From: Mycolicibacterium boenickei
GTDB lineage: Bacteria; Actinomycetota; Actinomycetes; Mycobacteriales; Mycobacteriaceae
Length of the DNA: 64,000 nt
Reading direction: 5' to 3'
Assembly: GCF_010731295.1 (NCBI RefSeq)
Contig: NZ_AP022579.1
Location: 2,666,001-2,730,000, forward strand
Shown here one piece after another: positions 34,594 through 49,038 of the stretch. Position numbers and translations under genes: made by a program. The notes under the pieces were generated by a model. It saw only the letters and a list, made by a program, of their open reading frames with translations. It was not told the origin of the DNA and did no database searches. Each line of letters starts with the position of its first letter. The stretch's first letter is position 1.

Positions 34594-34634
34594 GCCCCCA
34601 TAGCCCAATTGGCAGAGGCAGCGGACTTAAAATC
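34594..34634 (+). pseudogene. 5' half of host tRNA-Leu(UAA), cut at the anticodon loop (attL)
   Basis: Bases 34594-34634 read as the acceptor strand GCCCCCA, a D-arm with GCCCAATTGGCAGAGGC, and the anticodon stem and loop GCGGA-CTTAAAA-TC. After base 34634 the sequence no longer continues a tRNA. The missing second half is at 46848-46882, and joined they make a perfect 74-base tRNA with acceptor GCCCCCA paired to TGGGGGC. So an integration event has split the gene. The core GACTTAAAATC is shared with attR. Confidence 0.9.
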
Positions 34635-34676
34635 TGTCCGGCCTACGGATTCATGCGGTTTGCCCAAACGGAAGGT

Positions 34677-34809
34677 AATGCAGGTCAGAGGGTTGAAAAT
34701 GGTTGTCTGTCAGGATGGTTCGATAGGTGCTCATCGCACTTTCAACAGCACATCAACAGCGCAACAAAGCTAGGTACAAAATCCAGCAAACTACCCTCTG
34801 ACCTGCATT
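34677..34809. repeat. 17-base perfect inverted repeat with nested smaller repeats, left end of element
   Basis: AATGCAGGTCAGAGGGT (34677-34693) and its exact reverse complement (34793-34809) flank 99 bases. Inside are GTTGAAA and TTTCAAC, and GTGC and GCAC, in nested order. The inner 10-mer TGACCTGCAT occurs a third time at 46687-46696 near the right end, as expected for arm-type integrase or excisionase sites. It lies between the split host tRNA and the element's own tRNA. Confidence 0.75.
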
Positions 34810-34839
34810 CAAACGGACCTAGATAGACTCCCGGCTCAA

Positions 34840-34913
34840 GCGGGTGTAGCCCAATTGGTAGAGGCAGGGGACTTAAAATCCCTGTGTTGTGGGTTCGAGT
34901 CCCACCATCCGCA
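34840..34913 (+). tRNA. Complete tRNA-Leu(UAA) carried by the element
   Basis: The 74-base sequence folds as a full cloverleaf. The acceptor GCGGGTG pairs with CATCCGC. The D-arm contains GCCCAATTGGTAGAGGC. The anticodon arm is GGGGA-CTTAAAA-TCCCT with anticodon TAA. A five-base variable loop and a T-arm GTGGG-TTCGAGT-CCCAC follow. It shares most of its D-arm and its anticodon loop with the split host tRNA but differs in acceptor, anticodon-stem and T-arm bases. It is the only intact tRNA-Leu(UAA) seen here. The short variable loop is unusual for tRNA-Leu, and the reconstructed host gene shares it. Confidence 0.9.
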
Positions 34914-35213
34914 CCGCTTGCATTCAATGGCACGGATTGAATCGGCCAATCACCAACCGCCCTGGTGGATGAGTGCCAAGACCGCTCCGAGCTGACCGCG
35001 CACGATGGCCGTATTGCCGTCTGATTTCGTCGCTCGCTGACGTAGGCAGCTCGCTACGGCAATGCCACCGGCGAAGCGCTCCAATCGGCCACCGGTGGAC
35101 GGTTTCAACGTGGAAACCTGGCCGCGACTGAACAAGGGTGCTCATTTGAACCCCGGCTGATTCATCGCGTGGCGCAGCGCATGAGCTTCAACCGCCCCGT
35201 TTAGGCTGCTGGC

Positions 35214-36857
35214 GTGGATAAGAACCAGCTCTACTACGGCGACAACCTTGACGTGCTGCGCAAGTACCGCAAGGAAATCCCTGACGAGTCCGTAGACCTG
35301 GTGTATCTAGACCCGCCCTTTAACTCAAACCGGAACTATTCGGTCATTTTCAACAAGTCAGGGCACGTTGATGATGCTGCGCAGATCGAAGCCTTTGAGG
35401 ACACGTGGCATTGGACGCCAGTAACAGACGTTCAGTTCAGCCAATTTATTGACGAAGCGCCGAATGAAGCCGCAGACGCGCTAACCGCATTCCATACCCT
35501 ACTGGGTGAAAATGACGCGATGGCCTACCTAACGAATATGGCGCCGCGATTACTTGAGTTACATCGGGTTCTGAAACCAACCGGCTCGCTCTATCTCCAC
35601 TGCGATGCAACGATGAGCCACTATCTCAAAATCTTGTTAGACGCGGTTTTTGATCCGCGCAACTTCCGTAATGAAATCATTTGGAACCGCACAGCCGCCA
35701 AGGGATTGCAGACAACGAGGTTGGCGCGAAATCATGACGTATTGCTCGGGTACGCGAAATCCACGACACCAAAATGGATAGCGGATAAAGCATTCACACC
35801 ATACGATCCTGACGACCTTGACGAGAAGACTGCCGGGAAATACAAGTACAAAGACCCGGATGGCCGAATCTATCGTCTTAGCGACATTACTAACCCGAAT
35901 CCAAATCGGCCGAACCTCACATACGAATTTATGGGTATGACGAAAGTATGGAGGTGGACGAAAGACCGAATGGAACAAGCGCTCAATGACGGGATAATTG
36001 TTCAAACAGCACCGGGCAAGATTCCCCAAATGAAGCGCTACCTTGACGAACAGCGTGGCCGACCACTCAGTGACGTTTGGACTGACATTTCACCACTGAA
36101 TTCCCAAGCCGCCGAACGACTCGGATATCCGACACAAAAGCCGCTCGCACTTCTTGAGCGGATCATTGAACTAACCACTGAACCCGGTGACGTGGTTCTA
36201 GACCCGTTCTGTGGTTGCGGCACAACGGTGGACGCTGCGCAACGGTTAGGCCGCAAGTGGATCGGCATAGATATTACTTACTTTGCCGTGGACCTAATCA
36301 TCAAGCGATTGAAAGACGTCTACAAAGATGCACAGCCGCCAATATCCAGTACGTTCGACGTTACTGGAATACCCAAAGACCTGGACGGCGCGCAAAAGTT
36401 GTTTGAGCGCAATCACTTTGAGTTTGAACGTTGGGCGGTTTCGCTTGTCGGAGCACGTCCAAAGGCGAAACCCGGTGGTGACAAAGGGGTTGACGGTATT
36501 GCGCGTTTCTTGCTGCCTGGTAAGAACGAACGCGGAAAGATCATCGTTAGTGTCAAAGGTGGCGCTTATGGACCTACTGACGTTCGAGATTTGAACGGCA
36601 CGCTGACCACGCAAAAGGCCGAAATGGGGATACTTGTGACATTGAAGCCGTCAACAAAAGGTGTGCGCGACGCCATCAATCACGGGGGCACATACAAGCA
36701 TCCGTCTGTGGCTGAACCGTTCCCGCGATTGCAGCACATCACGATTGCCGAGCTGTTAGAGGGCAAGAAACCACGTCAGCCGCTCACTGACACACAAACC
36801 CACATTCAAGCCGAAGCACTCAAAACGCCGGATGAAGCGCCAGACATGTTGTTCTGA
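35214..36857 (+). CDS. DNA methyltransferase with C-terminal restriction-nuclease-like domain
   Basis: This 547-residue protein (GTG start) has a beta-class amino-methyltransferase layout. The DPPY-type catalytic motif DLVYLDPPF is at 28-36, and the AdoMet motif LDPFCGCGTTVDAAQRLGRKWIGID near 328-350. A C-terminal region has Mrr-like PD-(D/E)xK spacing: FERNHFEFERWAVSLVGARPK, then DKGVDGIARF (~423-432) and IIVSVKGG (~444-451). That combination, methylation and cleavage in one chain, is known from several type II and IIG-like systems. It would methylate element or host DNA and possibly cut unmodified DNA. No separate specificity subunit is present. Confidence 0.8.
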   Translation: MDKNQLYYGDNLDVLRKYRKEIPDESVDLVYLDPPFNSNRNYSVIFNKSGHVDDAAQIEAFEDTWHWTPVTDVQFSQFIDEAPNEAADALTAFHTLLGENDAMAYLTNMAPRLLELHRVLKPTGSLYLHCDATMSHYLKILLDAVFDPRNFRNEIIWNRTAAKGLQTTRLARNHDVLLGYAKSTTPKWIADKAFTPYDPDDLDEKTAGKYKYKDPDGRIYRLSDITNPNPNRPNLTYEFMGMTKVWRWTKDRMEQALNDGIIVQTAPGKIPQMKRYLDEQRGRPLSDVWTDISPLNSQAAERLGYPTQKPLALLERIIELTTEPGDVVLDPFCGCGTTVDAAQRLGRKWIGIDITYFAVDLIIKRLKDVYKDAQPPISSTFDVTGIPKDLDGAQKLFERNHFEFERWAVSLVGARPKAKPGGDKGVDGIARFLLPGKNERGKIIVSVKGGAYGPTDVRDLNGTLTTQKAEMGILVTLKPSTKGVRDAINHGGTYKHPSVAEPFPRLQHITIAELLEGKKPRQPLTDTQTHIQAEALKTPDEAPDMLF

Positions 36858-36899
36858 CGGGTACGGAACCGTTCGGCCAGCTGGCGCGTCTAACGGGGT

Positions 36900-37106
36900 A
36901 TGGACGAAATCGAACGTGCTGCCATCCGTGCCGAAGGTTCAGACCCCGATGACCCTCAAGTGGTCGCAGCGCTAGACCGCGTGCGCCAGGTGCTCATAGA
37001 GCTTGGACGCAACAACAGCGGCCTAGCCGACCCAACTAGACCGCTGTCGTGTCCCGAACCGGCGCATGGTTCGGGAAGTTCTTCTATGCGCTACCGGTGC
37101 CGATGA
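36900..37106 (+). CDS. Small hypothetical protein, 68 residues
   Basis: The ATG at 36900 follows the methyltransferase stop by 42 bases. The product begins MDEIERAAIRAEGSDPDDPQ and continues with a helical stretch VVAALDRVRQVLIELGRN; its C-terminus is Pro/Ser-rich. It overlaps the convergent 66-residue gene. The helical N-terminus resembles a coding sequence, but the C-terminus may not. Function unknown. Confidence 0.4.
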   Translation: MDEIERAAIRAEGSDPDDPQVVAALDRVRQVLIELGRNNSGLADPTRPLSCPEPAHGSGSSSMRYRCR

Positions 37107-37284
37107 TCGGTTGATTCATCGGCGGTGTTTTGCCGTGGTAGCGGCCACCTTCAAGCGGTGACTTGTCTTCTTTGCCCTTTGGCGTGATGCCCTTGCCCCA
37201 GCTGTATTCGGTAGCAGTGTCATCTAGCCGTGTTGGGTCTAGAGGCCGTTCGCAATCACCTAGAAACCCGATTCCGATAGTCAT
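37084..37284 (-). CDS. 66-residue element protein, paired with the capsid-like gene
   Basis: The ATG overlaps the stop of the 46-residue protein upstream (ATGA). The sequence contains EYSWGKGITPKGKEDKSPLEGGRYHGKTPPMNQ. The older element has a clear homologue at 49039-49254 (ELSHGRGLRPKHLRGTLPVDGGMYHGKAPSMNP). So this is a conserved gene kept next to the capsid-like gene in both elements. It may be a small virion or assembly protein; no known domain is recognised. Confidence 0.7.
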   Translation of the reverse strand: MTIGIGFLGDCERPLDPTRLDDTATEYSWGKGITPKGKEDKSPLEGGRYHGKTPPMNQPIIGTGSA

Positions 37285-37421
37285 TGCTGGCCACCTTCAC
37301 TAGCCGAATCATGTTGCACTGTAGGCACAGTGACCGGCTTAGGCTCGAGCGTTGAACCCGCGACAGCCAGAGCGACAACCACATCTGATAGATGCTGTGC
37401 AAGCCAAGTAGACGGTTCCAT
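37281..37421 (-). CDS. 46-residue protein downstream of the capsid-like gene
   Basis: From an ATG at 37421 with GAAGGA 8 bases upstream, the peptide reads MEPSTWLAQHLSDVVVALAV, then AGSTLEPKPVTVPTVQHDSA and ends SEGGQQ. It starts 65 bases after the capsid-like gene and its stop is fused to the next start (ATGA). The N-terminal helix is amphipathic. It is probably part of the same operon. Function unknown. Confidence 0.6.
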   Translation of the reverse strand: MEPSTWLAQHLSDVVVALAVAGSTLEPKPVTVPTVQHDSASEGGQQ

Positions 37422-37485
37422 GTGTTCAATCCTTCACAGATGAACGCGCTTCATGCGCTTAATGGGCAGGGGGAAACCGATTGGC

Positions 37486-38634
37486 TTACTTGGCAATTAC
37501 CGGGGCGGTGTAGTTCGCGTTAGCCGAAATCTGCATCACTGACGCTGCGCCACGATGACGGACACCAACACCAAAACCACGGCTAAAGAACGAATCTTGA
37601 AGCGGGTAGCCAGGAACCTTGCCCTGAATCTGACGCAATCCCTGATAGGCCGCGTTCACGTGCTGGCGAACACCAATCACGTTGTTCGGGTGATTTGGGC
37701 CGTAGGTGGCAGCAACAGAGAAGTAACCCTCTGGCACGAAATCACTTTCGATGATCCACAGCGGGCCGTAGGAACCAGAAACCTTGAGGCCGTTGAACTT
37801 TTCCGGCGCAACCTGACCCACAAGATTCTCCGGCTGCAAGTAGGCCGGAGCGCCAGCCGACGGAATGTAGTCGTGTTTGGCCACAATGTCGGTTGCTGTC
37901 TCCTTGCCAGCTCGGAACGTAGAAATGACTTCACCTTGTGCGGGATTGACGAAAGCCAACAGTTGCGCGCCAGAATCCGCGTTGTAACCGTGTTCAGTCA
38001 CGTTCTTTGCGCAGGTCTCAAGATCACCGCTATCGATTGTGGCCGCCCCGCTAGTCGCGTAGTGCGTATGCGGTGCCGTGAACGTCTTGCCGAGATAGGC
38101 CGGTGGCACGATCGAATCACCGTTGTAGAGGCCGTAGCACGTGTGATTCCACTCGTTCAGTTCTGCGGTCGGAGAAAACAGACGTTCCAAAATGGTGCCC
38201 TGGACTAGCTTTTGATCGGCAGCAAGCGCGTAGTTGGCTACAGCACGAATCTGTTCGGCTGTGCTGTCTCGCAGGAACTTCCACGTAAAGCGGGTTGCCT
38301 TGTCGTAGTCGCGGAACGTGTAGCCAAGTAGCAGATGCTTGGACGGAGCGCGAACAGATTCCGGCTCACCGTATTCGCTTGCCAGCTCGAAACTTTCGTC
38401 ATTGGTTGCTTGCGGGATTGCGTCAGCAGTGTTGACAGTCCAGTACGAAAGCAGGTTCGTAATCGCAGACCGTTCCGCGTTCCACGCATCAAGCGCGGCC
38501 TTGACTTCACCCCAAATCAGATTTAGGTCTACGCCATCGGCAGAACGATTGACCAGAGTGTCACCCTCTGTGTTATAGCCGCCCTCTGCGCCAAACGGCG
38601 GATTTTCCAACAGGTTTCGGAACAGGTCAGACAT
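37486..38634 (-). CDS. Phage major-capsid-like protein
   Basis: The start I chose (38634, MSDLFRNLL) has GAAGGG about 9 bases upstream, giving 382 residues. The features suggest an HK97-like capsid subunit: an N-terminal helical region (SADGVDLNLIWGEVKAALDAWNAERSAITNLLSY), a central E-loop-like segment (YTFRDYDKATRFTWKFLRDSTAEQIRAVANYALAADQKLVQGTILERLF) and a C-terminal beta-rich part (DSFFSRGFGVGVRHRGAASVMQISANANYTAP). A truncated homologue is at 49293-49541. The assignment is by overall look, without search; an encapsulin-like shell protein is an alternative. Confidence 0.6.
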   Translation of the reverse strand: MSDLFRNLLENPPFGAEGGYNTEGDTLVNRSADGVDLNLIWGEVKAALDAWNAERSAITNLLSYWTVNTADAIPQATNDESFELASEYGEPESVRAPSKHLLLGYTFRDYDKATRFTWKFLRDSTAEQIRAVANYALAADQKLVQGTILERLFSPTAELNEWNHTCYGLYNGDSIVPPAYLGKTFTAPHTHYATSGAATIDSGDLETCAKNVTEHGYNADSGAQLLAFVNPAQGEVISTFRAGKETATDIVAKHDYIPSAGAPAYLQPENLVGQVAPEKFNGLKVSGSYGPLWIIESDFVPEGYFSVAATYGPNHPNNVIGVRQHVNAAYQGLRQIQGKVPGYPLQDSFFSRGFGVGVRHRGAASVMQISANANYTAPVIAK

Positions 38635-38948
38635 TGGTGGAATCCCTTCAAAGCTTGCTTGATTGGCAGAACCGTCCGCGCTAGTGAATCGGCCTGAAAG
38701 GTAAGTAAAGAACCGATTCACTAGGCGACGGCGCGAAAATGACTCGCTAGGGGAGACTTACAGGACTCACACCATGCCCGTAATCGCATTGTGCGCCAAT
38801 GCGTCCCGCTGGTCAACGCCATGCGTCAACGGCGCGCCGTCCCGAAGTGGTTGCCTCCCAACGCGTCCCGTGGCACTCTGGGTGTCGGGTCGATAGAGGC
38901 CGTTACCCCGTTATCTACGTGGGTTTTTCAATCCGAAAGGCAATCAAT
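38635..38948. promoter_or_regulatory. Divergent promoter region between capsid-like gene and excisionase-like gene
   Basis: This 314-base gap separates the leftward capsid cassette from the rightward replication/integration set. Bases 38795-38880 hold repeated short blocks of the form GCGTCCCG (twice) and GCCGTCCCG, plus ACGCCATGCGTCAACG. The layout is that of a lysogeny/lysis or copy-control switch. No repressor gene of the phage CI type is visible in this gap. No ORF here is convincing. Confidence 0.45.
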
Positions 38949-39173
38949 ATGTCTCGCATTGCTGGCGCGACGGTCGATCAAGAGTTCTTTGATTGTGCCG
39001 ACGTCGTGACCTACTTGCACGGCAAGGGTCTAAAACACATCACAGAGCGCAGCGTTGTACGCGCAACTTACGAGGGTCGAAAGCTGTTGAAATCAACCCG
39101 AATCGGTGCCCGTACCTATTGGGCGCGTGAAGACATTGACGCATGGATCAAACGACTTAGGAACCAAGCATGA
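38949..39173 (+). CDS. Excisionase-like helix-turn-helix protein
   Basis: The ATG at 38949 follows AAAGG and gives 74 residues. TERSVVRATYEGRKLLKSTRIGARTYWAREDIDAWIKRL has the AlpA/Xis-like winged HTH pattern of the helix_turn_helix_17 family, including the R-x-G-x-R-(T/W)-Y-W and DIDAWI tail. Such proteins direct integrase to excision. It is followed by, and overlaps by four bases, the 221-residue gene. The integrase itself is 6 kb away at the right end. Confidence 0.75.
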   Translation: MSRIAGATVDQEFFDCADVVTYLHGKGLKHITERSVVRATYEGRKLLKSTRIGARTYWAREDIDAWIKRLRNQA

Positions 39174-39835
39174 GCTTTGAACAGGACACACAACACCGCA
39201 TCAACCAAACGCTTGCCAAAGCTGGCGTAGCCGTCGTGATGCCGGATGATTGGGATTACGTAACAAAGCTGGCCGATGGTTTAGGGCAGAACGATTTCGT
39301 CCAATTGACCTGGCTTGACCAGGATTCAGATGCGACTGCTCTCGCTGCTGAAAAGATCATGAACCATCTTGCAACTGTGGGTATCGGGTTCCCGGAGTAT
39401 GGGATTCAGCCAAACCCGCACGGCCACACAGAGATTGCAGAGCATCGCGGGCCGCAGTATGACCCGGCAGACCCGATGACACAGAACCGGTTGTATGGCT
39501 TGCTTGCCGGTCTACCGGGCCAACTTATCCCGTTGTCCAGTGAGTACACATGGAAAGACGTTGTGAACGAACGGCTTCCGCACTATCACAAGTGCGACAT
39601 TGGAATCTCGCGGGATTGCATGGCAGACAACGCGGTAATCCGGTTTCCCGTGAAGCTAGGCGAAATTGTGGTGATCTTTGCGAGCTGTCAGCAATGCCGT
39701 AAGTGGTTCGATCTTGACGGCTTTGATCGGAGATTGAACCAACGGCGGCCAATCAACACGCAGAGGCATCACGACCGGCTACTAGACATGATGCATGACG
39801 CGCTACCCAGCGCAGATAATGAACTGGATTGCTAA
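39170..39835 (+). CDS. 221-residue element protein of unknown function
   Basis: The ATG overlaps the excisionase stop by four bases (ATGA), so the two are co-translated. The protein is soluble, has several Cys/His (YHKCDIGISRDCM, ASCQQCRKWFDLD) that may bind zinc, and no motif I recognise. The hairpin at 39856-39895 follows its stop, so the operon seems to end here before the primase-helicase gene. Confidence 0.6.
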   Translation: MSFEQDTQHRINQTLAKAGVAVVMPDDWDYVTKLADGLGQNDFVQLTWLDQDSDATALAAEKIMNHLATVGIGFPEYGIQPNPHGHTEIAEHRGPQYDPADPMTQNRLYGLLAGLPGQLIPLSSEYTWKDVVNERLPHYHKCDIGISRDCMADNAVIRFPVKLGEIVVIFASCQQCRKWFDLDGFDRRLNQRRPINTQRHHDRLLDMMHDALPSADNELDC

Positions 39836-39855
39836 TCATGTTGGACCACAACGCA

Positions 39856-39895
39856 AAGAACCGCCCCAAAGCTTCCTTTCAATGGGGCGGTTCTT
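39856..39895 (+). terminator. Strong hairpin terminator between the unknown gene and the primase-helicase
   Basis: AAGAACCGCCCC (39856-39867) pairs exactly with GGGGCGGTTCTT (39884-39895), a 12-base stem with a 16-base loop. The downstream sequence TTCTACT has only a weak U-tract. Confidence 0.65.
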
Positions 39896-39969
39896 CTACT
39901 GCGCGAATCGAATCGATTCGTGGTCACGCCAACACTAATCACCCTTATGACCGAACTGAAGGTTGACCA

Positions 39970-42231
39970 ATGACCAGCGTACCCGCCAATCCCGTTGGTG
40001 TGCAATCACTTAGCGCAGACACGTTCGTGTCGTCCGCGATGCGCAATCATTCGCGCGGTTGGCATCCGCTGCCGGTTGGTCGGGTCGAAAAGGGGAACGA
40101 CCAACCGAAGTACAAAGCGCCGTGGTTCAAGGGTTTGACGGGATATGACGCAAAGCTGACCGATCCATCCGAAATCGAGGATTGGCCTCAACGTATTCGG
40201 AGACTGATAGACGAACACGGCGCGTCTGGCATCTTGTCGCTAGGCGTGCGGTGCCCAACGGATCGAATCGGTATCGACGTTGACCAATACGGGTCAAAGC
40301 GCGGCCTGGACCAACTACGCGAGCTTGAAGCCAAGTACGGGAAACTCCCCCCGGCCCCGGTAGTCACGGCTAGGGAGCTGTCTACCGGTAGCGGTATCCG
40401 TCTATTCCGTGTTCCCGATGGCTGGCACGGTAAGACACAGCCAGCCGAACACATCGAACTAATCCAGTGGTTCCACCGGTACCTAGTCGTTCCACCCAGC
40501 TTTCATTACTCCGGTAGTCGCTACCAGCGATATAGGTGTGATGGTCAGTTGGTGCGCTCTGGTGTCCTACCCGAATCAAAAGCCCTGCCGATGCTGCCGG
40601 ATGACTGGCTTGCCGGTCTTGCCGATCTGAAAGCCAGGGCGGGGGCAAGTGATGCCACAGCACAAGAGATTGCCGCGTTTGAAGCGAAGTATTCAAGCGG
40701 GCCGCAACCGATGGTTATCGACGCGATCATTGAAAAGACGTTCGGGTCTAACCCAAATCAGACCCGCAACGCGCTACGGGATGCACTGTGCTGGGCAGCT
40801 CGGGAATCAAAGGGTGGCCGGTACGGCTGGCGTAAGGCTCTGGGCAAGATTCGTGACGCTGCGGTTCTGTCCTACGCGAACCGTGGCCGCACGCTTGATG
40901 AAACCGAACTAGCTGACTTGATCGCTCTTGCCATCGGTGAAGTTCGGGACCAAACAGAGCGTGAACTTTGGCTACGTTGGCAACCCGATGAAGTGAAGCA
41001 AGGTATTGCAGATTTTGAGTCGTCATCGTGGGCGGGCAAGAAGAGGAAACAATCGAATATGGTTGATACAAACGATGATTGGGTCGAAGACGATTCGGCC
41101 GGCCTTGACCTTGACCCGTGGGATAAGTTCCCGTTGGTCTCATCGAAAACCCTTGCAGGAGAGATTGAACCCGCTAGATGGTTGGTTAAGGGTGTATGGA
41201 TTGAAAAATCTGCCGGTGTGGCCGCTGGAAAGAAGAAAGCTTTCAAGACGTGGCAGATGCATTCTATGGGTTTGGCCATTGCCAGCGGTCTACCGTTTCT
41301 TGACGAATTTGAAGTAGTCACAGGCGGTTCCGTGATCTATCTATCGGGTGAAGGTGGTCAAGATGAGTTCATGAGCCGCCATCAAGCCATCGGGGCTCGG
41401 TACGGCTTGAAGCCAAACGAACTAGAAGACTTGTCGTTTCACTCGTTGTTCAAGGTTTCGACACTCTCCGATCCAGAGTTCATGGCCGCGTTGAAACATC
41501 ACTTAGACGTCGTGCAACCCGTAGCTGTCTACATAGACCCTTTGTATGCCTATCACCCGAAAGACGTTGAAACCGGCAATGTTTACTCACGCGGGCCGAT
41601 GCTGGCGAAGATCAGGGAAGAGATCGAACCGTATGCCGCGCTCATCATCGGCGATCACATCAACAAGTCTGCCGATGACAACCGCCTAGACCTAGACGAC
41701 ATTGGTTTTAGCGGCATGAGCCAATGGGCCGATTCCTGGTGTTTGCAGAGCCACCGGACGGATTTCCAAAGCATCGGCATCGACAGCTACGCAAAGCTCA
41801 AGGTTGAATATGGCTCTCGTAGAACAGGTTCCATGCGCTATGACATTGACTGGCATCTGACTAGAGACATGTCTGACCACAACGTCATCAAGTGGGCCGC
41901 GTGCGACTGGTCGGTGGTTCACAACGCAGCTGACGCAATCACGGGCCGTTTCACTGTGCTTGCCGACGATGACGATTGCTTACGCGCGATTCAAGCCGAC
42001 GTTGACGCTAACCCCGAGACCAGCAAGACGAACACAATCACTCGCTTGCTAGCGGCCTACAAAGGGCGTTCACGTGACGGTTGGCGTGCGTTGTGGGACA
42101 GGTCGATTCGTGACGGTTACGTCGTCAGCACGAAAACCAAAGAGATTCGGCCCTATGGCAAGTCAACACGTGAGTATGAAGTGGAGCGATTCAAAACCGG
42201 CAGAGAAGTCGGAAAGGGCAACCAACGGTGA
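39970..42231 (+). CDS. Primase-polymerase / RepA-like helicase replication protein
   Basis: A 753-residue replication protein. The N-terminal 200 residues have the bifunctional prim-pol fold: ILSLGVRCPTDRIGIDVDQYG (catalytic acids), VVTARELSTGSGIRLFRVP and VVPPSFHYSGSRY. A central region is of the AAA_25/RepA helicase type: AAGKKKAFKTWQMHSMGLAIASGLPFLDEF (degenerate Walker A ending KT), GSVIYLSGEGGQ and PVAVYIDPLYAYHP (Walker B-like). It resembles the D5-like primase-helicases of phage satellites and plasmids. Its place next to iteron-like repeats suggests that the element replicates after excision. Confidence 0.75.
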   Translation: MTSVPANPVGVQSLSADTFVSSAMRNHSRGWHPLPVGRVEKGNDQPKYKAPWFKGLTGYDAKLTDPSEIEDWPQRIRRLIDEHGASGILSLGVRCPTDRIGIDVDQYGSKRGLDQLRELEAKYGKLPPAPVVTARELSTGSGIRLFRVPDGWHGKTQPAEHIELIQWFHRYLVVPPSFHYSGSRYQRYRCDGQLVRSGVLPESKALPMLPDDWLAGLADLKARAGASDATAQEIAAFEAKYSSGPQPMVIDAIIEKTFGSNPNQTRNALRDALCWAARESKGGRYGWRKALGKIRDAAVLSYANRGRTLDETELADLIALAIGEVRDQTERELWLRWQPDEVKQGIADFESSSWAGKKRKQSNMVDTNDDWVEDDSAGLDLDPWDKFPLVSSKTLAGEIEPARWLVKGVWIEKSAGVAAGKKKAFKTWQMHSMGLAIASGLPFLDEFEVVTGGSVIYLSGEGGQDEFMSRHQAIGARYGLKPNELEDLSFHSLFKVSTLSDPEFMAALKHHLDVVQPVAVYIDPLYAYHPKDVETGNVYSRGPMLAKIREEIEPYAALIIGDHINKSADDNRLDLDDIGFSGMSQWADSWCLQSHRTDFQSIGIDSYAKLKVEYGSRRTGSMRYDIDWHLTRDMSDHNVIKWAACDWSVVHNAADAITGRFTVLADDDDCLRAIQADVDANPETSKTNTITRLLAAYKGRSRDGWRALWDRSIRDGYVVSTKTKEIRPYGKSTREYEVERFKTGREVGKGNQR

Positions 42232-42294
42232 CGGCAGCAAACACTTTTCGGCCGATTTCGGGTCGTTGGCGCAGGTGGCCCGCACGGTCTGACC

Positions 42295-42503
42295 GCATCG
42301 CATCTTTGGGTTTGCCGGGCACAGTCTGCGGATGCCGTGCGGGCCGCATCGCATCTACGGCATCTAGTGCTCTACCTGCTGAAACATGCTGTGCGGCATC
42401 CGCAACACATCTTTTCGCCGAGCATAGCCACGCACAGGCGCAATGGCAGGCTTGCCATGCAGTGCGAGTGCTTAGGGCATCGCATCTCCGCACTGCATCT
42501 AGC
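42295..42503. repeat. Iteron-like GCATC repeats downstream of the primase-helicase
   Basis: The 11-mer GCATCGCATCT occurs three times, at 42295-42305, 42346-42356 and 42477-42487. The related GGCATCTAG and GCATCTAGC lie at 42359-42367 and 42495-42503. These lie in a 338-base gap (42232-42569) with no supportable gene. Repeated short sequence next to a replication gene is the usual sign of an origin. There is no AT-rich block, so unwinding would have to occur elsewhere. Confidence 0.6.
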
Positions 42504-42569
42504 TAGCAACGGGGTCGGGGCACCGAGAGTCATTGGGAAACAACACGATTGAATGAAGGGAAAGAGAAG

Positions 42570-42941
42570 ATGAGGGTAGAAGATCGGTACCGGGCCACAA
42601 CGGGAACTGTTCTAGCACTGAGTGATAACGGGGTAATGCTGTGTCCGTTCTGTTCTGACGATCTGACGCACGTTGACGAAATCTCTGCCGGTTACTTTCC
42701 TGGTGATGATTACGATCAAGGCGCAACATCGGCTAGCACTGCGACATTCGACGCGATGAACGGTGAGGTGCGTCAAGGGCCGACGACTGATTTGAGGTAC
42801 TCAGATAGGCGGCATTGGGTAGAGATTCACATTGATTGCGAAGTGTGCCACGGTGGAACGTTGGTCTTGGGTCAGTGCAAGGGGTTTACAGAGGTCTATT
42901 TGGTTCCGAACGTCAAAACGTCTGCGCGAGTGAGTAAGTGA
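42570..42941 (+). CDS. Small zinc-binding-like element protein
   Basis: The ATG at 42570 has GAAGGG 9 bases upstream and gives about 123 residues. Two Cys pairs, MLCPFC and DCEVCHGG, could form a zinc ribbon. No function is recognised; it lies at the start of a set of genes reading toward the integrase, and the next start is 11 bases downstream. Confidence 0.6.
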   Translation: MRVEDRYRATTGTVLALSDNGVMLCPFCSDDLTHVDEISAGYFPGDDYDQGATSASTATFDAMNGEVRQGPTTDLRYSDRRHWVEIHIDCEVCHGGTLVLGQCKGFTEVYLVPNVKTSARVSK

Positions 42942-42951
42942 CGGTCGTGCA

Positions 42952-43191
42952 ATGGTGAAGGATTCAGATCGGCGCAAAGCAAGACGACGGTTCAACACGT
43001 GGCAAACCAGAGTGAAGCAATTGGATGCCGAGCTGGCAGAAGTCGAATCGTTCGATAAGCCAACCGATGACGACATACGTAGACGCGAGCATCGGAGCAA
43101 CGTTGGCAAAAAGGGAGCTGCCGCACGTTGGGCCAAAACTGATGGGAAGTACCGAGCTAGAGAATCTAGTGAGAGTGAGGGTTTGACGTGA
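42952..43191 (+). CDS. Small basic hypothetical protein, 79 residues
   Basis: A highly basic protein (MVKDSDRRKARRRFNTWQTR followed by VKQLDAELAEVESFDKPTDDD) with an amphipathic coiled-coil-like segment and an Arg/Lys-rich C-terminus (NVGKKGAAARWAKTDGKYR). Its stop overlaps the GTG of the next gene by four bases. It may bind DNA, but no family is recognised. Confidence 0.55.
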   Translation: MVKDSDRRKARRRFNTWQTRVKQLDAELAEVESFDKPTDDDIRRREHRSNVGKKGAAARWAKTDGKYRARESSESEGLT

Positions 43192-44435
43192 GTACGGATT
43201 TCGATGGTGCGGATGACCAGGCCGTTGATACTGGCAAGCGAACCTATGAACAGAAAAGCAAGAACCCAAAGCGTCGGAATGCTAAGCGTCGTGCAAACTA
43301 TGCGCTGGACAAAATGCAAGAGATTGAGAACGAACTAGCCGCACTTGAAGGTAGGAAGCCAAAGGATGTAGTTGGTGAGTATATGCAGCGGAAAGCCAAA
43401 GAAGACAACACGATTGATGTTGAGGTAATCAGCGAAGATTGCCAGGATTTTTCGGACCAATCACAGGGCGAATCGGTGGATGACTGTGCGATCTCTCTAC
43501 CGGCCTTGCTTCCAAAAACGATTGGACCACAACAGGATTCAAATCAGATCGACGATCCAAGCGCGTCGAGTAACAACGGTGCGGCACAACAAGAGTCAGA
43601 CGGCCAGGAACCAACAGAGTACGTAAACCCCTATCCGTACTTGTCTGCCGATTGGTGGGAACACTGTGCGCCAGAGGAGAAATTGAGCCGATGCCGTGCA
43701 ATTTCGACCGATGGAACACGTTGCCGTCAGAAGTCGATTACCGGTGGTCGGGTTTGTCGGCATCATGGCGGCCTAGCTCCACACGTGAAGTTGGCCGCTA
43801 GAAACAGGATTGAGAACGCAGCCGATCAAATGGCAGAACAGTTGCTACGCATGGCAATTGATCCAAAGACTAAAGACAGCGTGAAGCTTGCCGCTATCCG
43901 CGATGCACTGGATAGAGCTGGACTTAAAGCGCCAGAGCAAGTGGTTGTGTCTGCCGGTCAATCGTCAGCGTTTGAAGACATTGCGCAAGACGTCGGGTAT
44001 TCGGGTATCCAACACACACAACCGGAATACATTGATAGTCAACGCGAGTCAATGAAAGTGCAACATGATTCAGACCCTTTCGGGCCAACGGAATCTAACC
44101 CGTTCGGTTCGTCGCGTTCGTCTGGGCAATCGAATCAAGCGGAGTACCAACAGGATTCAAACATCTGGAATGAAGGTACGGCATTCAATGATCCCGGTAG
44201 CTCACGAAAATCTCACACCGCCCCGGTGGATGGATTCGGAGCTGGTCAGCACGTCGGCACAGACCGCGATTGCGACGGCCTAGCTGCCCGTAGGAGAGCG
44301 TCACGCGAGCACTGGGATATGCAGTACCGGAGAACCGAGCACGTCACGGGAGAAGACGCCATAGAGGCCGCGAACGCTGCGAACCGTGAGGCCGGAGCGC
44401 TCAAGGCATTACCACCGGGCCGCAAACGTCGCTGA
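43188..44435 (+). CDS. Element protein with Cys/His cluster typical of actinophage genes near terminases
   Basis: The 415-residue protein (GTG start) has a coiled-coil N-terminus (ALDKMQEIENELAALEGRKP), a long acidic Ser/Gln-rich linker, then CRAISTDGTRCRQKSITGGRVCRHHGGLAPHVKLAARNRIENAADQMAEQLL. The C-x7-C...C-x2-HHGG-x-A cluster followed by a helix is a pattern I recall in many actinobacterial phage proteins, often beside terminase genes, but I cannot name it securely. The C-terminal 200 residues are low-complexity. It may be DNA-binding or virion-linked. Confidence 0.55.
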   Translation: MSTDFDGADDQAVDTGKRTYEQKSKNPKRRNAKRRANYALDKMQEIENELAALEGRKPKDVVGEYMQRKAKEDNTIDVEVISEDCQDFSDQSQGESVDDCAISLPALLPKTIGPQQDSNQIDDPSASSNNGAAQQESDGQEPTEYVNPYPYLSADWWEHCAPEEKLSRCRAISTDGTRCRQKSITGGRVCRHHGGLAPHVKLAARNRIENAADQMAEQLLRMAIDPKTKDSVKLAAIRDALDRAGLKAPEQVVVSAGQSSAFEDIAQDVGYSGIQHTQPEYIDSQRESMKVQHDSDPFGPTESNPFGSSRSSGQSNQAEYQQDSNIWNEGTAFNDPGSSRKSHTAPVDGFGAGQHVGTDRDCDGLAARRRASREHWDMQYRRTEHVTGEDAIEAANAANREAGALKALPPGRKRR

Positions 44436-44528
44436 CCTGTACGTTTGGTGCCAGTTGGTAGGGTGCAAGTGACGTTCTAAACGAGCGTCACCGAGCTACA
44501 CCAACGCCGCGAAATTGGAGGTCAGGCC

Positions 44529-45191
44529 GTGACGAAGGCCGGTAAACCATCGCTTAGACCGAAAGCGATTGGATACGTACGTGTGAGCACGAATCGCCAA
44601 GCGGATAACGGATATTCGTTGGACGCGCAACGGGATCGGCTCGAATCATTCTGCAAGGAAAGCGGTTACGAGCTAGTCAGCGTGATTCCTGACGTGATGA
44701 GTGGTCGGAAGACTGACAAGCTCTATGGCCGTGCTGCCGCTGTCGCTGCGATTCAAGCTGGAATTGCCGACGTGTTGTTACTGAACGCATTGGATAGGGC
44801 TACGCGAGACACGCTAGATGGTTTGGAGCTGATGAAGACAGCACAGGATGAAGGTTGGCGAATCGTCACGATCAAAGGCGAAGACAGCGAAGCGATTGGA
44901 AAGCTAGAGCTGACAATCAAGCTGGCGTTCGCAGAGCAAGAGCGCGAAAAGATCAGCGAGCGAACCAAGCAAGGTCTAGCGCGTGCCAAGCGTGAAGGTA
45001 AGGCACTTGGTAGGCCGTCCACTATCCCGCGTGCAACAGTTCGGCGAATCGTTGCGATGCGAGAGAACGACGGTCTTGGACCGAAGGCAATTGCAACGAA
45101 GCTGAACCAATCGAGAGTGAAAGCGCCACAAGGGGATACGTGGCATTACTCGACTGTTCGTAACGTTCTAGCCCGTGAAGGTGTCCTGTGA
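44529..45191 (+). CDS. Small serine recombinase (resolvase/invertase family)
   Basis: A 220-residue protein (GTG start) with the serine-recombinase N-terminus KAIGYVRVSTNRQADNGYSLDAQRDRL (catalytic Ser within RVS), LLLNALDRATRDTLDGLELM, AFAEQEREKISERTKQGLARAKREGKALGRPS, and a C-terminal helix-turn-helix (RATVRRIVAMRENDGLGPKAIATKLNQ). It resembles resolvases that separate multimers or invert segments rather than large phage integrases, which have 450 or more residues. It starts 38 bases before the integrase gene. Its target site is not identified. Confidence 0.8.
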   Translation: MTKAGKPSLRPKAIGYVRVSTNRQADNGYSLDAQRDRLESFCKESGYELVSVIPDVMSGRKTDKLYGRAAAVAAIQAGIADVLLLNALDRATRDTLDGLELMKTAQDEGWRIVTIKGEDSEAIGKLELTIKLAFAEQEREKISERTKQGLARAKREGKALGRPSTIPRATVRRIVAMRENDGLGPKAIATKLNQSRVKAPQGDTWHYSTVRNVLAREGVL

Positions 45192-45232
45192 TGACAGCTC
45201 TACGGCACGACACCAAAAGGACGGCCTGAATC

Positions 45233-46534
45233 ATGGCTTATGTACGCACGTTGAAGAACGGTAAGTATCAGGTGTGCTGGCGTGAGAATGCACGCGATGA
45301 CTACGGCGCACCGATCAAGGGCAAGTTCGTTCAACGAACCGAAACGGTTGATACCGAAAAGGCCGCTGAACGTCGCAAGGTGGCTATAGAAGTTGAGATT
45401 GAATCAGGCGGTCACCCGTCGGCATCGGCAGACCGTGCCAGCCAGCCACTAGCCCACTACGCACGCATGTATTTCGATGCTCTGGTGGGCCGTATCGATC
45501 AATCCACCCTTGACGGTTATCGAGAGCTGTACCGAGTTCACATCAAGCCGACGTTCGGTAATCGTCCGGTGTGTTCGATCCTGCCTAGCGACGTGGACAC
45601 CTGGACGTCGGGATTGATGGCAGGCCGTTCCGATTCGACCGTTAAACAAGCACTTGGCGTATTGCGCCGAATCATGCGTAAAGCTGTGTTGGATAAGGCC
45701 ATTGACGCTAACCCGACTACAGAGGTCAAAATCAGCACGTCCACCAAGCAACGCGCTGATCGGCAACCGTTCAAACATTGCCCGTTGAATGCTGGTCAGA
45801 TTGCAGCCGTTGCCGATTACATCAGCGCCGAACAGCGGAACCCGGTTTTTGGTCTTGCTGTGACGTTCGCAGGTTTCAGCGGCCTACGCGCTGCCGAGCT
45901 GCAAGGTCTCGAAATAGCCGATTTGGACCTGAACCCGGTCAATCCGTCCGTGAGCGTGAGCCGAACGAAGACACGGCGCAAGACGAAAGATTGCCAATGG
46001 ATCACGTCCACACCAAAGTCTGAGAAGTCGATTCGTACTGTGCCTTTGGATGGCTGGCTAGCTGCCGATTTGCGGGAGTACCTAACCAACGTTCACCCGA
46101 ACGCCGGTGATCCAACAGCCGTGCTGTTTCCGGGCCGTCTGAATCGTCACACCGCAAGCACTCTCAAGCGCAAGTTCTCTGACCCGTTGGACATGCTGGA
46201 TTGGGATAACCCGATTGTCTGCGATTTCGTCTATGAGACGAACTTCAATAAGGCTCTATCCAAGCTCGCTGAAACCGGTGTGCTGCCATCCGATCTGACC
46301 CGCGCACGCTGGCACGATCTAAGGCACAGCTTTGCGGTGATGAGTCTGTCCGGTGGAGAGCACTACATGCAGGTATCCAAATGGTTGGGTCACGCGACAT
46401 TCACGCTCACCTTGGACACGTACGGCGATTACATCTCTTCGGTTGAGGGCGGCAAAGCAGCACCGTTGGCGCGTCCGGTGGCTGTTACCGCTGCCAAGAC
46501 GAACGTTGTTCCGATTGGCCGTAAAGCGAACTAG
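45233..46534 (+). CDS. int: Tyrosine integrase of the tRNA-Leu element
   Basis: The 433-residue integrase has an N-terminal arm-binding-like domain (AYVRTLKNGKYQVCWRENARDDYG), a core-binding domain (SQPLAHYARMYFDALVGRIDQSTLDGYRELYRVHIKPTFG), and the catalytic domain with Arg in FAGFSGLRAAELQGLEIADLDL, the H-x-x-R box (WHDLRHSFAVMSLSGGEHYMQVSKWLGHATFTLTLDTYGDY), and a final Tyr. This is the enzyme that would recombine attP with the anticodon loop of tRNA-Leu. Its gene stands next to attR as expected for such elements. Confidence 0.92.
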   Translation: MAYVRTLKNGKYQVCWRENARDDYGAPIKGKFVQRTETVDTEKAAERRKVAIEVEIESGGHPSASADRASQPLAHYARMYFDALVGRIDQSTLDGYRELYRVHIKPTFGNRPVCSILPSDVDTWTSGLMAGRSDSTVKQALGVLRRIMRKAVLDKAIDANPTTEVKISTSTKQRADRQPFKHCPLNAGQIAAVADYISAEQRNPVFGLAVTFAGFSGLRAAELQGLEIADLDLNPVNPSVSVSRTKTRRKTKDCQWITSTPKSEKSIRTVPLDGWLAADLREYLTNVHPNAGDPTAVLFPGRLNRHTASTLKRKFSDPLDMLDWDNPIVCDFVYETNFNKALSKLAETGVLPSDLTRARWHDLRHSFAVMSLSGGEHYMQVSKWLGHATFTLTLDTYGDYISSVEGGKAAPLARPVAVTAAKTNVVPIGRKAN

Positions 46535-46686
46535 GGCAATCGAGAGCCAGCGAATGAACCGACGAACATTCATCGCGCATGGAGCGACTGACCGATTCAA
46601 TCTGAGCGCGCTGCTAGCAAACCGGCCTCAACAGCGGGCCAACAGCACCGAGCAGCACGACCCGGGCGTTTGCCAAGGTCAGCGCG

Positions 46687-46696
46687 TGACCTGCAT
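46687..46696. repeat. Right-end arm-type site
   Basis: TGACCTGCAT in the 302-base gap between int and attR (46535-46836), where no gene is supported. The same 10-mer occurs in the left-end inverted repeat at 34678-34687 (inverted) and 34799-34808. Copies on both sides of attP are typical for integrase arm sites. Confidence 0.55.
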
Positions 46697-46836
46697 GTTT
46701 GCCATTGTTCACGTCGGTTTTGACTTCGCTGAATCAATGAAATCGATTGAGACGCAACCTATCTAGGTCGTGATTTGAATGCGTTCCCTAGTTCAATTTT
46801 GACCAACGGATAGGTTGCTGACCCTCAAGACGGACA

Positions 46837-46882
46837 GACTTAAAATCCGCCAAGTGTCGGTTCGAGTCCGACTGGGGGCACC
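46837..46882 (+). pseudogene. 3' half of host tRNA-Leu(UAA) at attR, identical pairing to the 5' half
   Basis: From the core GACTTAAAATC (46837-46847) the sequence continues CCGCC, a variable loop, the T-arm GTCGG-TTCGAGT-CCGAC, the acceptor strand TGGGGGC and ACC. It completes the 5' half at 34594-34634 exactly. The element-side flank is GGACA, which mirrors the TGTCC at attL. Confidence 0.9.
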
Positions 46883-46939
46883 GAATAAGTGCAGGTAGAA
46901 GCGTCATACGCCGCTGAGTACGGCACGCCGTGGTAGTTC

Positions 46940-46960
46940 CGTTGTGCAATCGTTGTGCAA
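46940..46960. repeat. Tandem CGTTGTGCAA arm-type sites, left end of older element
   Basis: CGTTGTGCAA occurs at 46940-46949 and 46951-46960, an 11-base period, followed by CCCTG and a G-run. The same pair with the same spacing is found at 50297-50317, near the other end. No other copy was noticed in the window. Confidence 0.65.
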
Positions 46961-47058
46961 CCCTGCGAGGGGGATCGTCCACCAGTAGCGCTCCGGCAAA
47001 CACGGCGCGCACGGAAATCACGGCGAGTTTCGTCACCGCGGTTTGGGAGAATGGCCGG

Positions 47059-47931
47059 GTGACTGTGGACGAAGACGATTGGCTCCCATTCGGCGTCGAA
47101 GACGATGACGAGCAGACAGCGCAATTCCTTGCCCTGCGCGATGACGTACCGCCCTGGCTCAACGAGTCTCTTTGGGTCTGGATCGGTCGTGTCTTTACGG
47201 GCCACACCACAGGCGGTAGCCCTGTGTTCCGGGATGCGCTTCTGCGGCAAGCCGAGCGTGTACTTCAGGAACCAATGCCACGGATCGGGCCTTATCAGCG
47301 GGATGCGACGGACCGGTTGCGTAAGGCGTACATGGGTAAATCTGCGTCAGCGCCATTAGCTCTGGCTGATTTCCTGCTCACGACACGCGAGGGCGATGGA
47401 AACAGGACCTCTTTGGACCAGACCCTCGCCGAGGCCAGATCTGCGTGGCGCGTCGGCGAGCGGCGCGGGAAGCTCGGGTTGGTGCGTCGCCTCCCAAAGG
47501 GCGTGGAAGAGGCGGTAAAGCACGCAAGCCAACTGCCCAACGGCGGCAAGCGTTTAGCCGAGGCGTGGAACGCAGCCTTCGGCTTGGCCCCTGACCCGTC
47601 ACGGGCCTACTCGCTGGCAATCGTTGCCGTAGAGGATGCCGCGATACCGGTCGTCTGCCCAAAGAAGGTCGATGCCGTCCTCGGCGATGCCATCGGGGAT
47701 TTGGCCGCGAACGAGAAGTGGAAGCTGCCGCACCAGCGTGAACACAACCAGGCTCCGCCACGCGAAGTGCTTGTGTCGATGATGCGCATGCTCAACCGTG
47801 GTCAGCACGACCGGCACGGCGGCGCGCCAGTGCCGTTGCCCGACATGACGCAGGCTGAGGCGGAGTCTGCCGTCATGCTGGCCGCCACCCTCGTTGGATG
47901 GTTCTCCACGGACAAGGTCACGAAGTCCTAG
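47059..47931 (+). CDS. Possible abortive-infection (Abi_C/HEPN-like) protein
   Basis: The 290-residue protein (GTG start) begins VTVDEDDWLPFGVEDDDEQ. Its C-terminal half, AYSLAIVAVEDAAIPVVCPKKVDAVLGDAIGDLA .. VLVSMMRMLNRGQHDRHGGAPVPLPDMTQAEAESAVMLAATLVGWFSTD, has the alpha-helical layout of the Abi_C/HEPN group. RGQHDRH is close to the HEPN R-x4-6-H motif; such proteins are often RNases of phage-exclusion systems. The assignment is by motif only. The gene opens the older element, immediately after its left att site. Confidence 0.5.
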   Translation: MTVDEDDWLPFGVEDDDEQTAQFLALRDDVPPWLNESLWVWIGRVFTGHTTGGSPVFRDALLRQAERVLQEPMPRIGPYQRDATDRLRKAYMGKSASAPLALADFLLTTREGDGNRTSLDQTLAEARSAWRVGERRGKLGLVRRLPKGVEEAVKHASQLPNGGKRLAEAWNAAFGLAPDPSRAYSLAIVAVEDAAIPVVCPKKVDAVLGDAIGDLAANEKWKLPHQREHNQAPPREVLVSMMRMLNRGQHDRHGGAPVPLPDMTQAEAESAVMLAATLVGWFSTDKVTKS

Positions 47932-48079
47932 CCCAGATCTCCCATACGTCACTCGCGGCGGTACGGTGCCGTCACAGTGTCGGCCAGTCGCCCATCTGAG
48001 CCCACGGCACCGGTAGACCGATCCGACGGAACCGGCGTGGCTGCCGCGACGTGTCGGTGCCCGCTGCAACGATGGATGC

Positions 48080-48706
48080 ATGTCACCGGTAGACAACGTG
48101 TGGGTTGACGGCAGCGAGCGCGGCCTCGCGTACGCATTCGCAGGGGTGGAGAAACACCTACGCGACAACGCCAACGGTTGGGCTAAGCGAGCGCTGCTGT
48201 TGCCTCACCTGTCGGCGCGTGGGGAGCAATACCTTCAGAACTACAGCGCCAATAAAAACGTGGGTAGTGCGCGCGGCAAGCGCCCTGAGCGTGGCGGGCC
48301 AGTATTAGCGGTCGACCCACCGCTGAAACTGTTGGAACTCGGTCTGAGCCTGGCTGACGGACAACTGCTCGGGGTGGCGACGGTGCACCCGCACGAGGTG
48401 ATCGGGTGGGCAGCGGCGACGAAGGCTCTTGACCTCGCGACTGGCGAGCGCCACCCTGGCGTTCCCCCCGAAATCGAAGAGGCACTGCAAGACCTGTATG
48501 ACGCCGGGTACAACGGCTACGCGCGACAACGCGAAACATTCTTTGCCGCCAAGTACTTTCCGCCCATCGATCTTCTGATGGACGCCGGATACGACGTTGA
48601 CTTCGTGAAGAGTTACCTTGTCGCGCTCGGGAAAGCAGCGGACAGTGTCGAGAACATCGACAAACTGTACGTTCCGAAATCTAGTCGGCCACGCACTTCC
48701 CGCTGA
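48080..48706 (+). CDS. Hypothetical protein in older element, 208 residues
   Basis: The ATG at 48080 gives a soluble protein beginning MSPVDNVWVDGSERGLAYAF and containing PLKLLELGLSLADGQLLGVATVHPHEVIGW, AATKALDLATGERHPGVPPEIEEALQDLYDAGYNGYARQ and PIDLLMDAGYDVDFVKSYL. I recognise no domain. It follows the Abi-like gene in the same direction and is closed by the hairpin at 48710-48770. Confidence 0.6.
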   Translation: MSPVDNVWVDGSERGLAYAFAGVEKHLRDNANGWAKRALLLPHLSARGEQYLQNYSANKNVGSARGKRPERGGPVLAVDPPLKLLELGLSLADGQLLGVATVHPHEVIGWAAATKALDLATGERHPGVPPEIEEALQDLYDAGYNGYARQRETFFAAKYFPPIDLLMDAGYDVDFVKSYLVALGKAADSVENIDKLYVPKSSRPRTSR

Positions 48707-48709
48707 AGA

Positions 48710-48822
48710 CACCCGGCAGCCAGACCCCATAGAGACCAAGTGCTTTAAAGGTTTGTCTGACTGCCGGGTGCCGGTTATGTGAGCCAGGGCGGTCTCAACC
48801 AAGGCAAGCACGCCGCCCTGGC
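48710..48822. terminator. Two hairpins between convergent genes in the older element
   Basis: CACCCGGCAG (48710-48719) pairs with CTGCCGGGTG (48761-48770), and CAGAC with GTCTG just inside. A second perfect pair, GCCAGGGCGG and CCGCCCTGGC, lies at 48783-48822. Both fall between the rightward 208-residue gene and the leftward set ending at 48828. Confidence 0.65.
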
Positions 48823-48827
48823 CCAGG

Positions 48828-49034
48828 CTATGTGACCTCGAAACCGCTTGTGCCGCTTAGCACTTTGAGATGCTCAGCGGTGAAGTCTGACGCGGGTAGG
48901 GCATAGCCGTTGGCCGCTGACCATACATGCGGACCGCTCTTGATACCGAGTAGCGCCCAATCCTGACGGGACATTTCACGTTGTAGCTTCACACCCGGCA
49001 ATGCGCCGGTGTAGCGAACCTGTTTGGTAGTCAT
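48828..49034 (-). CDS. Small protein in degraded capsid cassette, 68 residues
   Basis: A leftward 68-residue product beginning MTTKQVRYTGALPGVKLQRE and including WALLGIKSGPHVWSAANGYALPASDFTAEHLKVL. It follows the homologue of the conserved 66-residue protein, four bases after its stop, so it was probably part of the capsid operon. No function is recognised, and no counterpart was found in the 12 kb element. Confidence 0.55.
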   Translation of the reverse strand: MTTKQVRYTGALPGVKLQREMSRQDWALLGIKSGPHVWSAANGYALPASDFTAEHLKVLSGTSGFEVT

Positions 49035-49038
49035 GGGT

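Follow-up and report, generated by a model that had tools for sequence, protein, structure and literature searches.

The window analyzed here, a 64,000-nucleotide stretch of DNA (C1:2666001-2730000) from a 6.59-Mb genome in two contigs, of which the one comprising the window measures 6.56 Mb, harbors a 12.2-kb element between the two halves of a host tRNA-Leu(UAA) gene. Besides a complete tRNA gene near its left end, this element encodes on the plus strand a DNA methyltransferase with an Mrr-like C-terminal domain (35214..36857; N6_N4_Mtase 8e-47, Mrr_cat 2.7e-7), two small ORFs (38799-39173 and 39170-39835) with relatives in some loci of the same integrase family, a primase-polymerase/AAA replication protein (39970..42231; Prim-Pol 7.3e-16, AAA_25 3.3e-21), an ORF with no assigned function (43188..44435) with relatives in many family loci, a serine recombinase (44529..45191; Resolvase 1e-31) and a tyrosine integrase (45233..46534; Phage_integrase 1.7e-8, phrog_1 1.8e-41) presumed to have made the insertion; on the minus strand lies a gene for a phage major head (capsid) protein (37486..38721; phrog_3990, E 2.9e-110, no Pfam match). 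The GC content is 0.52-0.57 within the element vs. 0.63-0.73 in the left flank and 0.58-0.65 over the next 8 kb on the right. Because the capsid gene is the only virion gene recognized among the 10 element ORFs scanned (a 68-aa ORF at 36900 being left out), with no terminase, portal or tail gene among them, we did not class the element as a temperate phage and filed it as a satellite. It carries an integrase and a major capsid gene within one region, the two features by which candidate mycobacterial PICIs have been defined (PMC10654092), and judged by its gene content it appears to be of satellite type and resembles these candidates, with integrase, capsid gene, replication gene and tRNA target in common, whereas the available portion of that report makes no mention of an element breaking its tRNA and bringing a substitute.

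Of the host tRNA-Leu(UAA), the 5' half is positioned on the attL side (34594..34634, plus strand) and the 3' half on the attR side (46848..46882, plus strand). Residues 34594-34630 agree with the native gene without mismatch over 37 nt, as do residues 46839-46880 over 42 nt, an intact example of that gene being found in M. houstonense (L057:12847-12921). The preliminary description had the two halves joining to a perfect 74-base tRNA; the match to the native gene bears this out, but the joined gene is 76 nt with its encoded CC and 74 nt only when counted to the discriminator base. The attL core GACTTAAAATC (34624..34634), a short stretch whose same 11 bases recur at 46837-46847, encloses the 7-nt anticodon loop CTTAAAA (34626-34632). 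As read by eye from the junctions, attP has the form CGGACAGA-CTTAAAA-TCTGTCCG, an 8-bp inverted repeat flanking the anticodon loop, with the right arm of this putative core at 34633..34640 and its inverted counterpart at 46831-46838, and the target site reads GCGGA-CTTAAAA-TCCGC. Given this layout of attP and target around CTTAAAA, the integrase overlap is probably the anticodon loop itself, and the flanking 8-bp repeats are candidate core sites for the integrase. Further inside, a 17-bp perfect inverted repeat (34677-34693 and 34793-34809), the TGACCTGCA of which is found again at 46687, may provide arm sites. The host tRNA is rebuilt at neither attL nor attR: ARAGORN found no tRNA at either junction in the window, and the attL stretch 34594-34670 folded no better than its shuffles (z 0.24), in agreement with the earlier claim that attL does not restore the gene.

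The single tRNA that ARAGORN reported in the window is a tRNA-Leu(taa) at 34840-34915. This is a complete tRNA-Leu(UAA) with a short variable loop (34840..34913, plus strand), designated type B here; that a full tRNA-Leu(UAA) lies inside the element had been recognized at the outset, with a spacing from attL that was given as 206 bases and is 205. It folds better than its shuffles (z -2.54), displaying cloverleaf-like acceptor and T stems, with D and anticodon arms that are shifted in the predicted fold. In an alignment of 11 tRNAs, 13 pairs were altered on both sides, which 0/500 shuffles reached; for further pair types, 54/500 shuffles attained the observed number. A promoter and terminator scan found no sigma-70-type promoter near this tRNA and no terminator; the missing promoter counts against the reading set out below. 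The type-B pattern gave 0 hits in IMG/VR, the best phage matches being to the Pseudomonas phages ZC03/ZC08 (81% over 80 nt) and Myxococcus phage Mx1 (86% over 71 nt). The M. abscessus prophage prophi86-1 came up through a tRNA-Leu match; its tRNAs form a large array that includes Leu-TAG and Leu-CAA, and we set it aside, as we did phage Kykar. The cell presumably makes the 34840 tRNA and charges it with leucine.

Scanning the whole genome with the Rfam tRNA model (RF00005, E <= 0.001) and typing all 50 hits with ARAGORN yielded one UAA tRNA, the 34840 copy of the element; a second one elsewhere, which would have spoken against the preliminary description, is not among these hits. The other leucine tRNAs of this genome have the anticodons CAA (two genes), TAG, GAG and CAG, none of which reads UUA by the usual decoding rules. 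The codon is rare, as had been supposed: in host ORFs sampled from six 20-kb stretches, chosen by GC3 and length and not from curated annotation, UUA accounts for 21 of 35,154 codons (0.60/1000) and occurs in 17 of the 104 ORFs. The frequency in the host flanks of the window is 9/12,048 (0.75/1000), and the 80 kb around rpoB hold 7 in 23,311 codons, distributed over five ORFs among which we saw by eye no evident ribosomal or polymerase gene. These observations weigh against the supposition of the preliminary description that the reader of UUA is likely essential. In Streptomyces, growth does not depend on the UAA tRNA (bldA), which points the same way.

The preliminary observation is thereby confirmed, and most of its interpretation is supported. 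What we observe directly is that the host tRNA is split and not reconstructed, that the substitute is the sole copy found, and that this arrangement recurs in Mycobacterium sp. GA-1841 (below). We surmise that a tyrosine integrase of the satellite, most likely the one encoded next to attR, carries out recombination within the anticodon loop of the tRNA-Leu(UAA) gene. Since attP and the gene have only 11 bp in common, integration destroys the host tRNA, and the cell would keep a reader of UUA thanks to the complete tRNA-Leu(UAA) situated 205 bp inside attL. Losing the element by any route but exact excision would then be lethal or costly, and on decay of the element the substitute could stay as the host's own gene, as our genus survey suggests. 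Taken together, we consider it very probable that the satellite destroys the host tRNA-Leu(UAA), supplies a substitute and works like tRNA-dependent lysogeny, with which it has in common a tyrosine integrase, an attB in a host tRNA, a short common core with no working tRNA rebuilt at either junction, and a disrupted tRNA without second copy in the genome. This form of lysogeny, which the preliminary description had mentioned for mycobacteriophages, is real and published (PMC10865867): phage Fionnbharth needs its own tRNA-Lys, as demonstrated with phage mutants and integration plasmids, and the same requirement was demonstrated with plasmids for cluster L. The non-rebuilt targets in Table 2 of that paper are Lys-TTT, Ile2-CAT and Leu-CAA, with Leu-UAA not in the table. 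The cases in the part of that report available to us (Fionnbharth, Gaia, cluster L and some Gordonia phages) are temperate phages in which the need for the tRNA was tested for some, whereas the window holds a satellite at Leu-UAA in which that need is a presumed one. In Sinorhizobium, a phage-related sequence puts tRNA-Leu(UAG) out of action and supplies one of its own, in the context of tRNA gene diversification (PMC11476347); as in the window, the target tRNA is inactivated and a tRNA different from that of the host takes its place, but the phylum and the isoacceptor are different, and the available text of that report does not describe genes that persisted once the carrier was gone. What is known is thus the principle in full phages (PMC10865867) and tRNA substitution in Sinorhizobium (PMC11476347), as far as the available portions of these reports go, and what is new is the satellite carrier, the Leu-UAA target and the signs of lasting capture; our search of the open-licence literature found neither a satellite with tRNA-dependent lysogeny nor a genus-wide survey of relics. 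Under our reading, the carriers of tRNA-dependent lysogeny would include a satellite besides phages, and its targets would include the reader of UUA.

Many relatives of this integrase behave in another way. We compared 41 GTDB loci related by integrase, and within the genus 28 of 396 genomes have such a relative at E <= 1e-60, the window's own included. Many relatives display a common order of capsid gene (on the opposite strand), small ORFs, a 43188-like ORF, serine recombinase and integrase, and many shorter or weaker family loci comprise the integrase only. With tRNA halves located by an ungapped scan allowing up to 11 mismatches (the weakest accepted having 7, in L081 and L084), the target is visibly rebuilt in 19 of the 41 loci (L049, L050, L051, L053, L054, L056, L061, L062, L069, L074-L077, L080-L084 and L086), which display an intact tRNA (Lys-TTT, Met-CAT, Leu-TAA or Arg-CCT) together with a displaced 3' half. 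Replacement was found in one element, that of GA-1841, which is spread over two contigs (L048 and L067); the remaining 20 loci display an intact tRNA only, half-like pieces only, or none in the stretch examined, and one of these loci, from a Pseudonocardia MAG (L063), with a Met 5' half without continuation, may be a further non-rebuilt target. The rebuilt pairing was also seen in seven of the 13 genomes behind a set of 15 stretches (G224, G352, G027, G256, G364, G241 and, for Arg-TCT, G136), some of which may be duplicates of genomes already named. Across the family, the rebuilt targets thus comprise Met-CAT, Lys-TTT, Leu-TAA, Arg-CCT and Arg-TCT, the closest integrases with a rebuilt target (53% and 52% by tblastn, in G224 and G352) both being at tRNA-Met; tRNA-Leu(UAA) is among the rebuilt integration targets reported in the accessible part of PMC12429752 as well. 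That most tRNA-targeting elements restore their gene, as the preliminary description had it, is in line with this integrase family, from which the window element departs: the integrase is related and the position in the tRNA is the same, but the rebuilding relatives carry a 3' half of ~42 nt that restores the gene, whereas the window element does no rebuilding and carries a whole substitute instead. Searches with the window integrase returned 535 records in a phage collection and 36 among plasmids, every one of them below 60% identity.

The arrangement of the window recurs, in an eroded element, on contigs of GA-1841 that carry the 5' half and the substitute (L067/L130) and the native 3' half (L048/L131). 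Compared with the window, the host 5' half is identical in 40/41 positions (one mutation) and the substitute tRNA in 71/74, two of the three differences representing one paired change in the anticodon stem (G-C to A-T); the DNA between attL and the tRNA is identical in 116/204 positions (57%), with 34 gap columns. The native 3' half, at L048:2132, is followed by DNA matching the window from 53807 onward. ARAGORN calls a doubtful tRNA at this attR (L048). About 1.25 kb separates the tRNA from the integrase, and within this stretch a serine-recombinase match (36% over 138 aa) begins at the end of the tRNA, whereas nothing there matches the methyltransferase, the capsid protein or the primase. 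The integrase breaks off at residue 103, at the ends of two contigs; a 21-nt inverted match and a CAC repeat at these ends resemble an insertion sequence, which is itself absent from the assembly. We infer that these two contigs adjoin. Among 47 RF00005 hits in GA-1841, the one UAA tRNA is the substitute, which is intact. A gene-poor relic with its tRNA retained is what a maintenance effect would predict, and GA-1841, as a natural case of an eroding element, agrees with this idea. One insertion common to the window and GA-1841 seems less likely; we favor separate and recent insertions, given the intact 3' halves in both, the cores of 11 vs. 13 bp (the latter read by eye) and the different right flanks.

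These findings bear on other explanations of the substitute tRNA. One could regard it as cargo for the element's own genes, with the broken host gene being incidental, and the element is indeed richer in UUA, with 10 in 3333 codons (3.0/1000, five of the ten in the methyltransferase) vs. 0.60 in the sampled host ORFs and 0.75 in the flanks of the window. GA-1841, however, keeps the tRNA although most of the element genes are gone, and since neither the window genome nor GA-1841 has a second UAA tRNA, the substitute must also serve the host; we therefore deem the cargo explanation quite unlikely. Cargo and host roles can coexist. A guard against tRNA-cutting defenses, a role proposed for phage tRNAs in the portions seen of PMC10865867 and PMC11476347, is not needed to explain either the position of the tRNA beside attL or its being the only copy, and we judge it highly improbable. 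That the split is an artifact of assembly, for which we saw no support, is barely credible for an arrangement that sits within a 6.56-Mb contig and recurs in GA-1841.

We also surveyed 396 genomes of the genus. The 5'-half pattern, at up to 3 mismatches, was found in 365 of them, a number to which type B and some type C tRNAs also contribute, and the pattern of the intact native gene in 353, leaving 43. An intact native gene was recovered by ARAGORN in three of these (G289, G043 and G024), and one (G133) has a native-like variant, type F. In 21 of the 396 genomes, the native gene was not found and one of four non-orthologous UAA tRNAs is present, with the anticodon confirmed by ARAGORN in all 21: type B in the window genome and GA-1841, type C in six (G004, G313, G323, G096, G366 and G270), type D in 12 (G107, G033, G144, G040, G125, G170, G146, G341, G214, G180, G114 and G301) and type E in one (G351). 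In G024, type C occurs in addition to the native gene. The remaining 18 of the 43, without an assigned UAA tRNA, fall into groups of 6, 8, 3 and 1. Six genomes that are 93-100% complete (G001, G015, G139, G148, G325 and G343) have no UAA tRNA among the matches listed, in a model search that scored 150 of ~1,300-2,700 first-look candidates per genome and can thus miss substitutes; eight that are less than 90% complete (G008, G025, G041, G070, G126, G303, G359 and G368) lay outside that search. In G209, G365 and G275 the 5' half is broken and no substitute is among the matches listed, and 20 stretches examined from the 44 and 34 Rfam hits of G209 and G365 held no UAA tRNA; in G329, the native half runs into a contig edge. 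Within the reach of that search, the six well-completed genomes and the three with a broken 5' half count against our main reading. As for possible sources, the type-D pattern gave 0 hits in IMG/VR, and types C and D match phages at up to ~81%. The type-C pattern hit two viral contigs, whose UAA tRNAs are alike in the anticodon arm and differ elsewhere; no donor was identified.

A scan for native halves at 16 loci with type C, D or E revealed clear native remnants in five. Three of these belong to type D, which lies on the strand opposite the native half in each: L248 (G107) has a 5' half with 4 mismatches, type D from 142 nt after its start, and 3' halves at 7961, 8559 and 10859; L249 (G033) has a 3' half with 6 mismatches at 6.3 kb from type D; and L253 (G170) has a 3' half with 4 mismatches. 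In L256 (G351), type E follows 141 nt on from a 5' half with 4 mismatches, again on the opposite strand, and in L209 (G270) type C lies ~470 bp downstream of a 5' half with 1 mismatch, on the same strand. Weak resemblance to a 3' half is seen in L254 (10 mismatches) and L212 (9 mismatches), and no native half was found at the other nine. Types C, D and E might instead be diverged orthologues of the native gene, with no repeated displacement: all types have a short Leu-like body in common, type F looks like a diverged native gene, and 11 of the 16 loci display no clear native remnant. Speaking against this are type D in L248, L249 and L253 and type E in L256, each on the other strand from a native half in the same stretch, and type C in L209, downstream of a native 5' half; we regard simple divergence as unlikely.

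We favor displacement, in which substitutes appear to have taken over tRNA-Leu(UAA) more than once among related genomes. The gene kdpA, situated 11 kb to the left of the tRNA in the window and present in GA-1841, is also found in nine of the 16 loci (L209, L248, L252-L256, L258 and L259), which places these nine and GA-1841 in the native neighborhood; for L210-L213 and L249-L251, kdpA is not within the stretch examined. Types C, D and E may have been brought by mobile elements. In L252 (G125), decayed integrase pieces of the window element's family persist at a distance of ~4 kb from the type-D tRNA. In 10 of 12 genomes, type D is preceded by an HNH-like gene (Pfam HNH_3 2e-4, below the cut-off), which is partial in G180 and not found in G301. 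In L252 this gene is broken up and in L251 it appears to have a frameshift, with the tRNA intact in both. In a kdpA tree of ten rows, five type-D hosts group together (95/93), as do the two type-B hosts (100/99), so that type D may stem from one event and "at least four" is to be understood as a count of types. We think it reasonably likely that a single-copy tRNA gene undergoes lasting, non-orthologous turnover driven by integrative elements that bear a complete tRNA, with at least four displacements of Mycobacterium tRNA-Leu(UAA) (types B, C, D and E; 21 of 396 genomes), the window representing the intact stage, GA-1841 the eroding stage, and types C, D and E captured genes that outlasted their carrier. 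Mobile DNA would then be a route for swapping a single-copy tRNA gene for a foreign one, and these species comprise a ready set for comparing native with captured tRNAs.

To the right of the intact element lies a feature absent from the preliminary description, what is left of a second element belonging to the same family (46883..50491), which ends in a displaced Leu(UAA) 3' half (50450-50491, 3 mismatches). As this displaced half marks the second element, the latter may be the source of the 3' half at attR. The damaged end of the remnant suggests that it is older than the intact element, integration into an existing attR being a possible alternative. Its ORFs at 46930-47931 and 48080-48706 match L135, and that at 49613-50185 matches L133.

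Immediately to the right of the intact element, 46883-50491 is taken up by the decayed remains of another element from this family, which contain a displaced tRNA-Leu 3' half at 50450 as well as similar stretches near 46943 and near 50297 (TTGTGCAA..CGTTGTGCAACCCTG). Further along, a 657-aa ORF on the minus strand (51215-53188) matches a papain-fold toxin domain (Gln_amidase, 2.6e-6), and its predicted product recalls the ESX-secreted toxins described for mycobacterial prophages and PICIs in PMC10654092.

Several surveyed genomes (e.g. G305, G317, G280 and G262) carry two exact 5' halves on the same contig, 20-43 kb apart, only one of which lies within an intact native gene; these genomes perhaps harbor elements that duplicate the 5' side. 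In G209, G365 and G275 (loci L214-L216), the 5' half of the native tRNA-Leu(UAA) is broken, and no substitute UAA tRNA was found in these draft assemblies. A tRNA-Met(CAT) 5' half that is not continued by a 3' half was also seen in a Pseudonocardia MAG (L063:11139-11176), with a family integrase nearby; ARAGORN found no tRNA on this locus.

At locus L045 and at native tRNA-Leu(UAA) loci in the genomes examined, the variable loop is short both in tRNA-Leu(UAA) and in one tRNA-Leu(CAA), in contrast to the long-armed leucine tRNAs; a literature search of open-licence papers yielded no account of this short loop.

As for the type-D tRNA, one of the four non-orthologous UAA tRNAs, it is preceded by an HNH-like gene in 10 of 12 genomes (e.g. 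L248:6767-7234). The two may formerly have been a homing pair; in two genomes the HNH-like gene is decaying, with the adjoining type-D tRNA still intact.
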